Shown piece by piece: positions 2,923 through 33,314 of a stretch of DNA of 33,912 bases (position 1 is its first letter; each line of letters begins with the position of its first letter). Under the pieces are notes generated by a model, which saw nothing but the letters and a program-made list of their open reading frames with translations, was not told the DNA's origin and ran no database searches. A program made the translations under genes and the position numbers. Where the stretch lies: contig QCQM01000007.1 of assembly GCA_003212195.1 (NCBI GenBank), positions 1 to 33,912 on the forward strand, in the 5' to 3' direction. This stretch comes from Prochlorococcus sp. AG-449-O05. GTDB taxonomy: Bacteria > Cyanobacteriota > Cyanobacteriia > PCC-6307 > Cyanobiaceae.

Positions 2923-3007
2923 TAATTAATACTTTAGATATTTGATACCTTTTGCCATTGGATAGTATTAATCAGATTCTCAAATCACACACTAATTTTT
3001 GATAAGT

Positions 3008-3040
3008 AAACACTCTTCTCTTTAAATTAGAGTGTTTTTA
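3008..3040 (+). terminator. Terminator-like hairpin
   Basis: AAACACTCT (3008-3016) pairs with AGAGTGTTT (3029-3037) across a 12-base loop, followed by a short T tract. It lies 85 bases after the DUF4177-like gene and before the Yfr2-type RNA. Confidence 0.6.
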
Positions 3041-3146
3041 ATGACAAATTTCCTGCAATAAACAATTTACACTTGTGACAGTTAAGTAACATTCCATTCG
3101 CCCCTCCCACGGAAAAGTAATAATTGGCATAGTTTATAAATGTGTG

Positions 3147-3239
3147 AAGGAGTGGTTTTACTAAAACAGTGGAAACAAGGAAACACTTTATTTAGTAAAA
3201 TCCTGAAAGACCTCTATAAATAGGGGTCTTTTTTTTTTA
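3147..3239 (+). ncRNA. Yfr2/Cyano-1 family small RNA
   Basis: The hallmark of the Yfr2 family, tandem GGAAACA motifs, is present as GGAAACAAGGAAACAC (3171-3186). The motifs sit in a loop closed by AGTG/CACT and by a long outer stem, GGTTTTACTAAA (3154-3165) with TTTAGTAAAATCC (3191-3203). A Rho-independent terminator follows: AAAGACCTCTA (3206-3216), loop TAAA, TAGGGGTCTTT (3221-3231) and a run of T. A -10-like TATAAA (3135-3140) places the 5' end near 3147. The family is abundant in marine cyanobacteria and, in work on Yfr2a, was linked to outer-membrane protein mRNA; targets here are unknown. The flanking 2923-3146 and 3240-3424 hold no convincing gene. Confidence 0.82.
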
Positions 3240-5936: not shown

Positions 5937-7319
5937 TTAATCTAAATCTGGCATTTCTAGAGCTGGTTCACTCTTTCTGTCGATTCCTTTTTCGAAACCA
6001 GCAGCGGCTGCTCTAGCACGTCCAGCATGCCAAAGATGACCAATGAATGTAAACCATCCTAGGAAGAATTGGGCTGCAGCTAACCATTGTCTTAAGTTAA
6101 CGAAGTTAACAGCATTAGGCTCTGTAATGATTCCACCAACAGAATTGATAGAAGCGTTAGGAGCATGAGTCATATATTCAGCTGCTCTTCTTACCTGCCA
6201 AGGCTGAATATCATTTTGGATTTTCTCAAGGCTCAATCCGTTAGGTCCTCTTAAAGGCTCTAACCATGGACCTCTGAAATCCCAAAATCTCATTGTTTCA
6301 CCACCAAATATAATTTCACCAGTAGGAGATCTCATGAGATACTTACCTAGACCAGTTGGTCCCATTGTTGAACCTACGTTAGCTCCAATTCTTTGATCTC
6401 TCACTAGGAAAGTAAAGCTTTGAGCTTGTGAAGCTTCAGCATTTGTTGGGCCATAAAACTCTGAAGGGTAAGCAGTGTTGTTAAACCAGATGAACGTTGA
6501 AGCGATAAAACTTGCTACACAAATTCCGCCAAGAGCGTAACTTAGTAGTCCTTCACCATTCCAGATAAAAGCTCTTCTTGCCCATCCAAAGGGTTTGGTA
6601 AAGATATGGAATATTCCTCCAATAATTGCAGTAATACCCACATAAACATGTCCACCAACAATATCTTCAATGGAGTTAACACCGATAATTGAACCAGCTC
6701 CCCCCCACGGAGATCTGAAAAGATAACCAAGAATAACTCTTGGATCTAAAGTTGGGTTTACAAGTCTGACTTCACCACCACCTGGTGCCCATGTGTCATA
6801 TGCACCGCCAATAAAACACCAGTTTATTGACCATGCTAGTGCACCTACACCTAGAACAATCAAATGATATCCGAGGATATTTGTCATTTGATTTTTATCT
6901 CTCCAATCAGTTGAGAAAAATGGAAAATCTTCTTCAAGTTTTTCTGGACCTGCTAATGAATGGTAAATACCACCAAAACCAAGTACAGCGGAAGCTATCA
7001 AGTGAACCACGCCTGCTTGGAAGAAAGGCATGATATCAGTAACTTCACCACCTGGGCCTATTCCATAGCCAAACATTGCGACGTGTGGCATACAGATTAA
7101 ACCTTGCTCCCACATTGGTTTATCAAAAGTAAAATGATTAACCTCAAAGAGCATCATTGCTCCCGCCCAAAAGACTATTAGTCCAGAGTGAGCAATGTGA
7201 GCTCCTAATAAACGTCCAGATAAATTGATTAATCTAGCATTACCTACATACCAGGCATAACCAGTTTCCTCAATACTTTGGTTTGGAGCTCTTAATAAAT
7301 TATTAAAGGGCGTTTCCAC
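5937..7319 (-). CDS. psbC: Photosystem II CP43 protein PsbC
   Basis: The chlorophyll a inner-antenna protein of photosystem II, 460 residues. It has six membrane helices with chlorophyll-ligating histidines, and a large lumenal loop between helices 5 and 6 that includes [20 protein letters not shown] with the arginine near the Mn4CaO5 cluster. An upstream in-frame ATG would add nine residues inside psbD. The family start is the GTG at 7319, giving [15 protein letters not shown] with V read as fMet. GAGGAGG lies about ten bases upstream, and the start overlaps the psbD end by 17 bases, as in chloroplasts. The two genes form one operon with psbD first. Confidence 0.97.
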
Positions 7320-8379
7320 GTGGAAGAACCTCCTCAGGGAATACAAAGTTTTCGTGTGGTTGATCCACAGAAGACATCCATGCTCGCATACCTTCGTTCA
7401 AAAGTATATTTTTTGTATAGAAAGTTTCAAATTCTGGATCTTCTGCTGCACGGATTTCTTGGCTTACGAAATCATAAGCTCTTAAGTTTAGTGCTAGGCC
7501 TACAATACCAATCGAAGATGTCCACATACCCATAACAGGTACAAATAGCATCAAGAAGTGTAAGAAACGCTTGTTTGAGAAAGCAATACCGAAGATTTGA
7601 CTCCAGAATCTATTCGCTGTAATCATTGAATAAGTTTCTTCTTCCTGAGTTGGATCAAAAGCTCTAAATGTTGAACTTTGAACCTTACCATCTGTATAAA
7701 TACTTGTATCTTCATACAAAGTGTTTTGTACTGTAGCACCATGAATAGCGCAAAGTAGAGCACCACCAAGAATTCCAGCAACACCCATCATGTGGAATGG
7801 ATTTAAAGTAATATTGTGAAAACCTTGAATGAACAGAATGTAACGGAAGATTGCTGCAACACCGAATGAAGGTGCAAAGAACCAACTATGCTGTCCTAAA
7901 GGATAAATAAGGAAAATACTTGTAAATACTGCAATTACTGCTGAGAATGCTAAAGCGTTGTATGGTCTAATTCCAACAAGGCCAGCAATTTCAAACTGAC
8001 GAAGCATAAAACCGATAAGGCCAAATACTCCATGTAATGCAACGAAGTTCCAAAGTCCACCAAGCTGTAGCCATCTTACAAAGCTACCTTGGGCTTCAGG
8101 ACCCCATAAAAATAGAAGACTGTGTCCCATGGCATCACCAGGGGTGCTTACAGCTGCTGTTAAAAAGTTACAACCTTCAAGGTATGAGCTTGCAACTCCA
8201 TGTGTGTACCAAGAGGTAACAAATGTTGTTCCGACGAACCAACCACCTATAGCAAGATATGCACAAGGAAGCAGAAGTAGTCCGGACCAACCAATAAATA
8301 CAAAGCGGTCGCGCTTCAACCAATCATCGAGGACATCAAACCATCCTCTTTGTGGGGCGCTACCAACTGCGATCGTCAT
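7303..8379 (-). CDS. psbD: Photosystem II D2 reaction-centre protein PsbD
   Basis: D2, 358 residues with five membrane helices, pairs with D1 to hold P680, pheophytin, QA and the non-haem iron. The N-terminal [20 protein letters not shown], the [16 protein letters not shown] region with the P680-side His, [16 protein letters not shown] with an iron-ligand His, and the conserved tail [11 protein letters not shown] are all present. The length is a few residues above the 352-353 common elsewhere, owing to insertions such as [10 protein letters not shown]. The leader (8380-8561) is AT-rich with TTTACA-like and TACAAA-like boxes on the minus strand near 8473-8448, too weak to call as a promoter. 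Confidence 0.98.
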
Positions 8380-15628: not shown

Positions 15629-16759
15629 TTGACAAAGATACTTATTCCTTCCGAAACAAGCTCTGGTGAAAGGAGAGTTTCAGCTACTCCAGAAGCGGTA
15701 AAGAAATTAAAAAGCCTTGGATGTGATGTTTATATTGAAAGTTCAGCGGGAAAATTATCAGGATTTAGTGACTTGTCATATGAAGAGTCGGGTGGAAAAA
15801 TAATAAATAACTTAGATCACAAAATTTGGGGTGAAGCCGACCTAATTTTTTGTGTTCAAACTCCATCAGAGGAAAATTTAACTAAATTAAAGAAAGGTGC
15901 AGTTCTTCTTGGTCTTCTTAACCCATATGGTAATAAGGAGCTTTTTAAGATTATAAATAGTAATAAGATTTCAGCTTTATCACTAGAACTGCTTCCGAGG
16001 ATTAGTAGAGCTCAATCTTCTGATGTTCTTTCTTCACAGGCCAATATCGCTGGATATAAAGCAGTTCTTTTGGCTGCAAGTGAGTTAGATAGATATTTCC
16101 CAATGCTTATGACTGCAGCAGGCACAGTCCAACCTGCAAAAGTAGTAGTTCTTGGTGGTGGCGTTGCAGGATTGCAGGCAGTTGCGACAGCAAAAAGACT
16201 TGGTGCAATAGTTTTCGTATCTGATATTAGACCTGCTGTTAAAGAACAAGTAGAGTCCCTCGGAGCAAGATTTATAGAACTTCCTGAAGTGGATGAAAAA
16301 CCTGGAGAAGCTGGAGGTTATGCAAAAGCAGTAACACCCGAATTCCTTTCAAAACAGAAGTCTACTTTAACTAAATATTTATCTGAAGCTGATGTTGCTA
16401 TATGTACTGCGCAAGTTCTAGGTAAAAAGGCTCCTGTTTTAATAGACGCTCCCATGATTGAAAAAATGAGATCTGGTGCAGTAATTATTGATTTAGCAGT
16501 TTCTCAGGGAGGGAACTGCGCAGGAACAAAATCAAATGAAACTATTATCAAAGATGGGGTAAAACTTATTGGAGCGGGGGAATTACCCTCTTCAGTTCCT
16601 TATGATGCAAGTTCACTTTATGCTAAGAACTTAACATCTTTAATTACACCATTTATAAAAGATGGTGTAATTAAATTAGATAAAGAGGATGAACTCATTT
16701 CTGGATGTTTATTAAGCGATGAAGGAGTTGTTCTTCAAAATAAAGTTTTTGAAAATTGA
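15629..16759 (+). CDS. pntA: NAD(P) transhydrogenase subunit alpha part 1
   Basis: A 376-residue soluble NAD(H)-binding domain dI of the proton-translocating transhydrogenase, which couples hydride transfer from NADH to NADP+ to the proton gradient. Starts TTG at 15629 with MTKILIPSETSSGERRVSATPEA. It contains the nucleotide-binding VVVLGGGVAGLQAVATAKRLGA and the catalytic RPAVKEQVESLGA loop. As in many cyanobacteria, alpha is split into two proteins; the membrane part is the next gene. The stop is 12 bases before pntA2, so the three genes probably form one transcript. Confidence 0.94.
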   Translation: MTKILIPSETSSGERRVSATPEAVKKLKSLGCDVYIESSAGKLSGFSDLSYEESGGKIINNLDHKIWGEADLIFCVQTPSEENLTKLKKGAVLLGLLNPYGNKELFKIINSNKISALSLELLPRISRAQSSDVLSSQANIAGYKAVLLAASELDRYFPMLMTAAGTVQPAKVVVLGGGVAGLQAVATAKRLGAIVFVSDIRPAVKEQVESLGARFIELPEVDEKPGEAGGYAKAVTPEFLSKQKSTLTKYLSEADVAICTAQVLGKKAPVLIDAPMIEKMRSGAVIIDLAVSQGGNCAGTKSNETIIKDGVKLIGAGELPSSVPYDASSLYAKNLTSLITPFIKDGVIKLDKEDELISGCLLSDEGVVLQNKVFEN

Positions 16760-29278: not shown

Positions 29279-29371
29279 ATTACAAAAGCATTTTTACGGA
29301 TTTACTATAAAAACAAATCAGTTAAGATCTGCAAGCTTACTTGAAATTTTCACGTAAGAATTAGGTAATTG

Positions 29372-29410
29372 AGAGATTGTTTTTAGCTAAGAAACAATCT
29401 CTTTTTTTTT
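29372..29410 (+). terminator. Strong Rho-independent terminator (plus strand)
   Basis: AGAGATTGTTT (29372-29382) pairs perfectly with AAACAATCTCT (29392-29402), followed by eight T. It ends the plus-strand small-gene transcript or a short RNA begun near 29318, where a -10-like TATAAA lies just upstream (29306-29311). Confidence 0.88.
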
Positions 29411-29425
29411 ACAAATATTTTTTCT

Positions 29426-32633: not shown

Positions 32634-32665
32634 AAAAAAAAGGGGGTTACAAACCCCCTTTTTTT
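32634..32665 (-). terminator. Strong bidirectional-type hairpin ending the riboswitch-controlled gene
   Basis: GGGGGTT (32642-32648), loop ACA, AACCCCC (32652-32658), flanked by eight A on the left and seven T on the right. On the minus strand it ends the gene at 32684-33013, 18 bases after its stop; its symmetry also allows rightward termination. Confidence 0.88.
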
Positions 32666-32683: not shown

Positions 32684-33013
32684 CTAATTACCTAAACCTA
32701 GAGGAGCCCAAAGAGTTGCTTCAGAACCTATAACAGGGACAACTCCTGTAGTTTTTGCATTAGAAACTTTATTTTTAACAATAGGAGTGTCTTGTTCTCC
32801 TAAAGCTGCCCATAAAGTTGATTGATGAGCGATAACTGGTTGAACTTTTAATGGTTGAGATTGAAAAGAAGGCTTTTGGGTTCTTACAAGTTGGACTCCA
32901 AGAGAACCAACAATAAATGCTCCAAGAAAACCTGCAAATACAGCAGTAATATTGTTACTACTTACTGAGGTAGATACGTTATTAGACATAATAGTTATGT
33001 GGCTAAATTTCAT
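32684..33013 (-). CDS. Small single-span membrane protein with repeated TLWA-x-LG motif, behind a glutamine-type riboswitch
   Basis: Not assigned to a known family. 109 residues: one membrane span (NITAVFAGFLGAFIVGSLGV, 21-40), then a soluble tail containing two copies of PVI-x3-x-TLWA-x-LG at 59-72 and 93-106, 34 residues apart. The start at 33013 is preferred to the later ATG at 32989 because a riboswitch-like leader ends within a few bases of it, as in downstream-peptide loci. A palindrome of NtcA type lies just upstream of the leader. The gene is therefore probably a nitrogen-status-responsive protein, analogous in control, though not in sequence, to the glutamine synthetase inactivating factors of other cyanobacteria. 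Function is unproven. Confidence 0.75.
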   Translation of the reverse strand: MKFSHITIMSNNVSTSVSSNNITAVFAGFLGAFIVGSLGVQLVRTQKPSFQSQPLKVQPVIAHQSTLWAALGEQDTPIVKNKVSNAKTTGVVPVIGSEATLWAPLGLGN

Positions 33014-33077
33014 TTTTGACTGAAGTCCCCGTTCCTTGGCTTCAATCTTAATGCGGCTCGTAAAACGAGATGAACGT
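33014..33077 (-). promoter_or_regulatory. Glutamine-II riboswitch (downstream-peptide RNA motif)
   Basis: Reading the minus strand 5' to 3': CGTTC (33076-33072) pairs with GAACG (33034-33030) as P1; CTCGT/ACGAG (33069-33057) forms P2; ATTGAAG (33046-33040) pairs with CTTCAGT (33025-33019) as an H-type pseudoknot P3. The CGTTCATC start and the GGAACGGGGAC segment fit the picocyanobacterial downstream-peptide motif, shown to bind L-glutamine. It ends five bases before the ATG at 33013. The GGGGA just before the P3 3' strand could be the ribosome site that folding hides or exposes; the direction of control cannot be read from sequence. Confidence 0.8.
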
Positions 33078-33080
33078 TTA

Positions 33081-33096
33081 TGTAGTCTACGCTACA
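33081..33096. promoter_or_regulatory. NtcA-type binding site
   Basis: TGTAG-TCTACG-CTACA contains GTA-N8-TAC (33082-33095), the NtcA consensus, with extended dyad symmetry. A minus-strand -10-like TATAGT (33107-33102) would put the transcription start at about 33095, inside the site. NtcA at the start point normally represses, which fits a gene needed when nitrogen is plentiful. The palindrome might alternatively be a leader hairpin. Confidence 0.6.
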
Positions 33097-33173
33097 TTTT
33101 AACTATAAGTATAATTTAATTTTCAAGATGTTAATGGCAATACAAAAACTTATTAAAAAAAAGAAATTAAATT

Positions 33174-33314
33174 TTAAAGTGAAGAAAATATATTTGAATT
33201 TTTTTGAGTAAAAAATAATTGATTATTTTCATAATTGTTTGCAGAATAACTTTCAGAAACAACAGTTCCGTGAGTTACCCCAAAAATAAAACCAAGTAAG
33301 ATCGCTAAACGCAT
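33174..33314 (-). CDS. Very small secreted peptide-like hypothetical (46 aa)
   Basis: Not recognised. MRLAILLGFIFGVTHGTVVS resembles a signal peptide or membrane anchor, followed by an Asn/Ser-rich tail (SYSANNYENNQLFFTQKN). The ATG at 33314 is 75 bases downstream of moaA on the same strand. The short length and unremarkable tail make it uncertain. Confidence 0.5.
   Translation of the reverse strand: MRLAILLGFIFGVTHGTVVSESYSANNYENNQLFFTQKNSNIFSSL

Follow-up and report, generated by a model that had tools for sequence, protein, structure and literature searches.

A glutamine-II riboswitch and a putative NtcA operator precede a small membrane-protein gene of the nitrate-assimilation cluster in Prochlorococcus

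The window, the whole stretch of 33,912 nucleotides analysed here (Prochlorococcus sp. AG-449-O05, contig QCQM01000007.1), ends inside moaA, at the edge of a nitrate-assimilation cluster. Adjacent to moaA lie a small ORF and a gene, termed here the TLWA gene, that is preceded by −10-like elements, a palindrome and a riboswitch aptamer (Table 1). The gene is followed by a terminator-like hairpin, which suggests a single-gene transcript. Papers are cited here by PubMed Central number, for the excerpts that bear on the point. Elsewhere in the window, an Rfam match to IsrR, the isiA antisense RNA (152 bits, 6722-6905, plus strand), lies antisense inside an ORF (5937-7346) with a psbC-like sequence, and further Rfam matches mark the known cyanobacterial small RNAs Yfr19 (29335-29415), Cyano-1 (3138-3207) and Yfr10 (2971-3049), all on the plus strand.

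Table 1. Features of the TLWA locus, in window coordinates
Feature	Position	Strand	Basis or remark
Terminator-like intrinsic hairpin, 14 pairs, T-rich tail	32635..32665	-	3′ of TLWA gene
ORF of 109 aa (TLWA protein)	32684..33013	-	ORF list and homologues
Second motif copy VIGSEATLWAPLG, residues 86-98	32696..32734	-	missing in short homologues
First tail motif VIAHQSTLWAALG, residues 52-64	32798..32836	-	V52, W60 and L63 invariant in 18 rows
Predicted single membrane-spanning helix, residues 11-36 of 101	32882..32959	-	AlphaFold2; hydropathy maximum 2.1
Glutamine-II (downstream-peptide) riboswitch aptamer	33020..33079	-	RF01704 covariance-model match
Putative NtcA-type operator GTA-N8-TAC, GTAGCGTAGACTAC	33082..33095	-	sequence
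−10-like elements TATACT and TATAGT (putative promoter)	33102..33113	-	sequence, just upstream of operator
46-aa ORF MRLAILLG...THG..., starts MRLAILLGFIFGVTHG	33174..33314	-	high-light version of companion small ORF
moaA, 3′ part, cut by contig end	33390..33912	-	PF06463, E 8.8e-33

Two in-frame start codons may begin the TLWA gene. Translation may start at ATG 32989, giving 101 residues, because three probable low-light homologues carry no ATG next to the pseudoknot of the aptamer and begin about 20 bases beyond it; ATG 33013 is also a candidate because it is kept in frame at all 36 high-light places read. AlphaFold2 predicts the helix at residues 11-36 only and the remainder at low confidence (mean pLDDT 55.6), such that the tail is predicted, at that confidence, to be disordered. 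Arg and Lys follow the helix, so the tail would be cytoplasmic by the positive-inside rule. The conserved stretches are GFLGAF..GSL.VQL in the helix and PV.A..ATLW..LG in the tail, the latter as a single copy in short homologues and as two copies in the rest. The protein shares 43-57% identity with 15 homologues outside the genus; alignment A3 omits L191, L193, L196, L197 and L198, L197 for a stop and the others by choice. Values of dN/dS against five high-light relatives lie between 0.24 and 0.68, on few changes. Searches of Pfam, NCBIfam, PHROGs and the PDB returned no family for the TLWA protein, and a scan of viral contigs returned no relative. Two matches were set aside: one to CbtB (E 0.035; 14.6 bits, where the cut-off is 64.4) and one to a PHROG (E 0.4).

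The original prediction, made from the letters of the DNA, had described a glutamine-II leader with three helices that ends five bases before an ATG, a perfect GTA-N8-TAC site within five bases upstream of it, and an unknown membrane protein downstream. This description holds. In an Rfam covariance-model scan, the downstream-peptide model proposed for checking it, RF01704, matches 33079-33020 on the minus strand over its complete length (model positions 1-60) at 64.9 bits and E 1.1e-13, against a gathering score of 33 bits. Every pair of the outer helix (CGTTC/GAACG) and of the hairpin (CTCGT/ACGAG) is present, and all pairs of the pseudoknot (ATTGAAG/CTTCAGT) are formed, one of them as G-U. 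The labels given to the helices do not stand: the outer helix had been called P1 and the hairpin P2, the reverse of the crystal-structure naming, in which the hairpin is P1 and the outer helix P2 (PMC6698751). ATG 33013 follows the pseudoknot strand after five bases (CAAAA), and GTA-N8-TAC is found at 33095-33082, five bases from the CGTTC of the outer helix. The product, with its one predicted helix and no family in the databases named above, agrees with the membrane protein described.

Covariation, proposed as a further check, proved slight, because the aptamer hardly varies among the copies linked to the TLWA gene. Over ten distinct sequences, the outer helix and the hairpin are 99% paired. 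No change occurs in the outer helix. In the hairpin, one pair is changed on both sides and one pair is broken in one row, with a score reached by 45 of 500 shuffles; in the pseudoknot, one pair is changed on both sides, and the seventh pair is unpaired in the seven low-light rows. The single-strand fold of the leader is unremarkable (z −1.21), such a fold being blind to the pseudoknot. The covariance-model match is stronger evidence for riboswitch identity than covariation. We regard the identity of the riboswitch as well supported, and glutamine binding and a resulting change in expression as predictions. A type-2 aptamer of Prochlorococcus is reported to activate expression upon glutamine binding (PMC6316151), and related glutamine-II riboswitches are reported as ON switches (PMC6316151, PMC6698751); the ON polarity of the window riboswitch is taken from these papers on its relatives. 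Ligand binding could instead block ATG 33013, given its nearness to the pseudoknot.

The site upstream of the aptamer is part of a 16-bp palindrome (TGTAG-N6-CTACA, 33081-33096). GTA-N8-TAC by itself is not unusual in the AT-rich window, where six are observed against 3.48 expected and 13 of 100 shuffles reach six. Its position is what recurs. Across nine genomes, 35 aptamers were compared, 30 with loci, out of 35 matches, and five from the window's own genome; in 28 of these the site lies at −15 to −17 from the aptamer start, with a chance of about 3e-4 per aptamer at the fixed position, although the genomes are related and no meaningful combined probability can be given. Two of the remaining seven miss by one base (one in spacing, one in a letter), and the other five belong to one gene type, encoding proteins that start MNN or MND and contain IREKI. 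All six aptamers in this set that precede a TLWA gene have the site. In a separate survey, in which aptamers were found by pattern and not by Rfam, all 38 loci with an intact 5′ end (36 places, 35 genomes) carry both aptamer and site ahead of the TLWA gene. Site and aptamer are therefore one recurrent module, beyond chance.

Within the window's own genome, four of the five aptamers have GTA-N8-TAC immediately upstream. The fifth (L005 1141-1200, genome G000, contig C23), which has no NtcA site and lies ahead of a 56-aa protein with no Pfam family, includes an exact copy of the 60-base wild-type sequence reported with the crystal structure (PMC6698751).

The operator probably covers the transcription start, because a −10-like element lies just upstream of it both in the window and in four probable low-light leaders, where CATAAT occurs at a similar distance. 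A sigma-70 scan did not report the hexamers TATACT and TATAGT, and the pairs that it found nearby are at chance level (5 found, 3.7 expected). In a class II, NtcA-activated promoter, a TAN3T box is expected about 22 bases downstream of the site. The TLWA gene lacks this arrangement: in L066, L070 and L179, no TAN3T box occurs 19-26 bases downstream of the site in the direction of the gene. On the opposite strand of the palindrome, a TAN3T-like TAATTT is present at +20/21 in L066 and L070. At two loci, the site of the transporter gene napA (nrtP) is followed by TAN3T at +23, an activator geometry. The layout of the predicted NtcA site at the TLWA gene thus fits repression, opposite to that of the transporter gene, NtcA binding itself being a prediction. 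The NtcA–riboswitch layout as such is already known from a DUF4278 gene, since an NtcA motif and a type 2 riboswitch have been noted at PMM1846 of Prochlorococcus (PMC6316151).

The gene belongs to the nitrate-assimilation cluster, a linkage that is well supported. Among relatives, it lies at the moaA edge of nirA–moaA clusters. A full cluster (genome G027) reads nirA, a 242-aa gene, moaB, moaD, moaE, moeA, moaC, narM, narB, napA, mobA, moaA and the TLWA gene; NarM and the NarK-type transporter were confirmed by search, the 242-aa gene has no NCBIfam match, and the other names are presumed from the sequences. Genome G043 has two nitrate clusters, about 215 kb apart and in opposite orientation (L068 and L069), each with aptamer, site and TLWA gene. 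In G006 and G116, aptamer, site and gene remain attached to the nitrate cluster, although the usual high-light flanking genes are missing from the stretches fetched. Outside the genus, 76 genomes of the family have a match; in each of the 20 that were fetched with long flanks, the gene lies in a nitrate cluster that also holds narB and napA, and more than one gene order occurs.

The 46-aa ORF of the window has counterparts in these clusters. A companion small ORF (MR.A..LG...G..HG) is present in all 17 family loci read that do not belong to group g56; in 16 of them it directly precedes the TLWA gene, and that of the 17th (L190) was found by pattern alone. The three g56 loci checked show no such ORF. 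Group g56 is probably the low-light LLI clade, and seven of its eight loci have the aptamer, the eighth contig starting too near the gene; in the five g56 genomes whose leaders were read, GTA-N8-TAC is present too. Groups g5 and g34 are probably Synechococcus, and in their clusters that were read the TLWA gene adjoins narM/narB, behind the companion ORF. No aptamer precedes the TLWA gene in the seven genomes of these two groups that were scanned (six g5, one g34). From these comparisons, the TLWA protein appears to be older than its switch, and insertion of the module between companion ORF and TLWA gene in the Prochlorococcus line would be the parsimonious reading. The g5 nitrate region L182 (probably marine Synechococcus) carries at 16262-16340 an aptamer with an adjacent TGTA-N8-TACA before a 58-aa protein that is DUF4278-like by eye.

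Presence of the gene in the genus tracks narB. The TLWA protein was matched in 57 of 266 genus genomes, full-length in 48 (98 or more of the 101 residues of the query aligned) and truncated in nine, while narB was found in 47 after removal of one spurious row (G035; E 2.9e-4, 31% identity, several stops). Both the full-length gene and narB occur in 44 genomes. Four have the full-length gene and no narB; the contigs of three of these (G000, G049, G186) end in or beside the cluster, and that of G143 does not. Three have narB and no gene (G080, G081, G177), on contigs broken within the cluster. Among 87 near-complete congeners, 19 have both, 68 have neither and none has one only. Nine genomes without narB retain only 3′ parts of the gene, with varying breakpoints; the seven remnants fetched begin at different residues, one adjoining a nirA remnant, and the aptamer pattern was not found at the four remnant loci scanned. 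The TLWA gene thus travels with the cluster and decays with it. G143 (L079 4907-5233) has an intact gene without aptamer, site or nearby nitrate genes, and neither narB nor NrtP was found in this genome, which is 80% complete; about 2.5 kb from the TLWA gene lies a DUF4278-type riboswitch gene, assigned by likeness to L002, with its own aptamer.

Of 300 family genomes searched with a profile, 83 have a match to the TLWA protein, and 76 of these do not belong to the genus. When 242 genomes from across the class were scanned, 14 genomes of the window's family gave matches; a single match outside the family (G687:C5:2162356-2162535, E 2.9e-4), from a genome of 9.4 Mb in that class, is marginal.

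Within the family, narB was matched in 182 of 300 genomes and NrtP in 94 of 293. Among narB genomes, 80 of the 94 that carry NrtP have the TLWA protein as well, compared with 0 of the 85 that lack NrtP. Because 80/94 stands against 0/85, the TLWA protein is tied more tightly to the permease than to the reductase, which is strong evidence for a link with NrtP and not proof: the statistic treats related genomes as independent, and since clusters are inherited together, co-occurrence alone does not name the partner. Genomes numbered above G536 are left out of this table, the NrtP search having drawn 293 genomes rather than 300; G537, outside that draw, has both NrtP and the TLWA protein. The pattern is unchanged by six weak narB matches among the 85 (E above 1e-30) and by one marginal TLWA match among the 80 (G327, E 4.7e-4). 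G441 (E 2e-4, four stops) was kept in the TLWA list but, lacking a match to narB, is not counted in the table. In the one NrtP-negative cluster inspected (L205), NrtC/NrtD-type genes adjoin narB. Of the 14 NrtP genomes without a TLWA match, six were fetched: G529 ends at a contig edge, and the other five show no such gene; L201 holds one chance occurrence of the motif, in a longer frame. Cluster position and co-occurrence together place the gene in the NrtP nitrate module, with G143 and these 14 genomes as exceptions.

The original prediction had further seen in this gene a nitrogen-sufficiency-induced regulator that does what GifB does elsewhere. The layout does predict such expression; the GifB-like role is not supported. 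The leader is of the same kind as that of DUF4278 genes, among them two other riboswitch genes of the window's own genome, and a review relates the DUF4278 domain to IF17 (PMC6316151). A GifB-like regulator of glutamine synthetase is nevertheless very improbable, because near-complete genomes without nitrate genes lack the TLWA protein: the gene is missing from 68 of the 87 near-complete congeners, exactly those without narB, all 20 relatives fetched from beyond the genus have it among nitrate genes, and a Pfam search found neither DUF4278 nor any other family in the window protein. Control of glutamine synthetase would not be expected to require nitrate genes. Nitrate assimilation, rather than glutamine synthetase, is the likely target.

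We propose, with a probability of about 0.45, that the TLWA protein acts as a brake on nitrate use that depends on NrtP, and that it is produced while glutamine is abundant and NtcA inactive. The locus would be a single-gene unit consisting of a promoter, an NtcA operator over the presumed start, a glutamine-II aptamer, a small membrane protein and a terminator, and the protein would be a dedicated part of the picocyanobacterial NrtP-type nitrate-assimilation module. When nitrogen is short, 2-oxoglutarate-loaded NtcA on the operator would block the promoter, while NtcA would activate the nitrate transporter gene from its activator-geometry site. When nitrogen is plentiful, NtcA would leave the operator, and the glutamine-bound aptamer would raise translation. 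The TLWA protein, with one helix, a predicted disordered tail and one or two 'TLW' motifs, would then most likely bind NrtP or the nearby nitrate reductase and lower nitrate use. We infer the target from co-occurrence and cluster position, and the inhibitory sign from the operator position and the reported polarity of related riboswitches; NtcA repression, and the brake as such, are put forward in the same sense. Counting against a brake are the 14 of 94 NrtP genomes without the gene, the exception G143, and a statement, citing Nostoc work, that NrtP activity is not regulated post-translationally (PMC4390861).

The absence of an aptamer in the seven g5 and g34 genomes means that control by nitrogen sufficiency is not universal, and the protein could therefore be a positive partner: an anchor, assembly factor or stability factor for NrtP or NarB, whose synthesis in Prochlorococcus is tuned by glutamine, which would maintain or prime a pool of it in nitrogen-replete cells. 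Its place beside narM/narB, behind the companion ORF, in the g5 and g34 clusters read and its presence in 80 of 94 NrtP genomes agree with such an accessory. We nevertheless consider it rather unlikely, as the position of the NtcA site and the reported ON switch (PMC6316151) predict least protein when nitrate genes are expressed most, and the 14 NrtP genomes without the gene indicate that NrtP can probably function in its absence.

The sign could also be reversed at the RNA. With ATG 33013 five bases from the pseudoknot strand, and that ATG kept at every high-light place, glutamine might stabilise the pseudoknot beside the start codon, making the aptamer an OFF switch and the protein a product of nitrogen shortage that aids nitrate use. 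The low-light homologues that lack this ATG and start beyond the aptamer, the reported ON polarity of relatives (PMC6316151, PMC6698751) and the repressing position of the NtcA site make this improbable.

If the TLWA protein limited not the entry of nitrate but the handling of nitrite, by nitrite reductase or by export, it would be a picocyanobacterial counterpart of NirP1. In favour of this are the presence of nirA in the cluster and three points from PMC10907346: Prochlorococcus is reported to lack NirP1, nitrite is released by some strains, and NtcA represses nirP1 by way of a site lying over the start. This reading is likewise doubtful: presence of the gene follows NrtP, and a predicted membrane-bound protein is less expected as a partner of the soluble nitrite reductase.

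The TLWA protein, which tracks NrtP among genomes with narB and in Prochlorococcus lies behind a sensor of glutamine, is a concrete candidate for how marine cyanobacteria that rely on NrtP stop nitrate use when ammonium is present. Control by PII through NrtC is a feature of the ABC transporter (PMC6603209), and Prochlorococcus is reported to lack both NirP1 (PMC10907346) and PirN (PMC13205821). A more specific form of the proposal, which we hold only tentatively, is that the protein is a membrane-anchored inhibitor of the MFS permease NrtP, under a glutamine riboswitch and NtcA, that replaces PII/NrtC uptake control in NrtP-bearing picocyanobacteria and helps to set nitrate use, and perhaps nitrite release, in Prochlorococcus. 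If true, the glutamine-II regulon would extend from mainly DUF4278 genes to nitrate use, and there would be a point of access to the nitrate use and nitrite release of a phototroph that abounds in the ocean. In the excerpts of the literature searched, this riboswitch was nowhere assigned to a membrane-protein gene linked to the nitrate cluster or to NrtP, although the full text of the main riboswitch paper may mention one.

Relative to known systems, the window riboswitch adds one member to a known class: it has the same helices as Glutamine-II (RF01704) and matches the full model, but its gene encodes a nitrate-cluster membrane protein and not DUF4278. Associations with further genes, for glutamine synthetase, PII and ammonium transporters, are mentioned for environmental sequences (PMC6316151). 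PMM1846-type DUF4278 genes (PMC6316151) have the same layout of NtcA site and aptamer, at a fixed spacing seen in the DUF4278 genes of the window's own genome; the TLWA protein differs from them in being unrelated, in having nitrate-cluster neighbours and in occurring, among near-complete congeners, only with narB. The gifB/IF17 system of Synechocystis follows the same two-input logic, NtcA repression and a glutamine riboswitch, but with a type 1 aptamer and an inhibitor of glutamine synthetase (PMC6316151), whereas the TLWA protein has no DUF4278 or other Pfam family. The two clusters of G043 fit MIT0604 as described in PMC6370341. By shape only, the TLWA protein can be likened to SynWH7803_1012, a 112-aa one-helix membrane protein that is strongly down without ammonium (PMC9430850). 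NirP1, compared here by description only, is likewise a small protein with a nitrate/nitrite link and an NtcA site over its start, but it interacts with nitrite reductase and is reported absent from Prochlorococcus (PMC10907346). A further parallel is the NrtC regulatory domain with PII, which would do the same job of stopping nitrate uptake when nitrogen is plentiful (PMC6603209); PII acts there on NrtC/NrtD of an ABC transporter (PMC6603209), whereas the TLWA protein occurs in none of the 85 narB genomes without NrtP.
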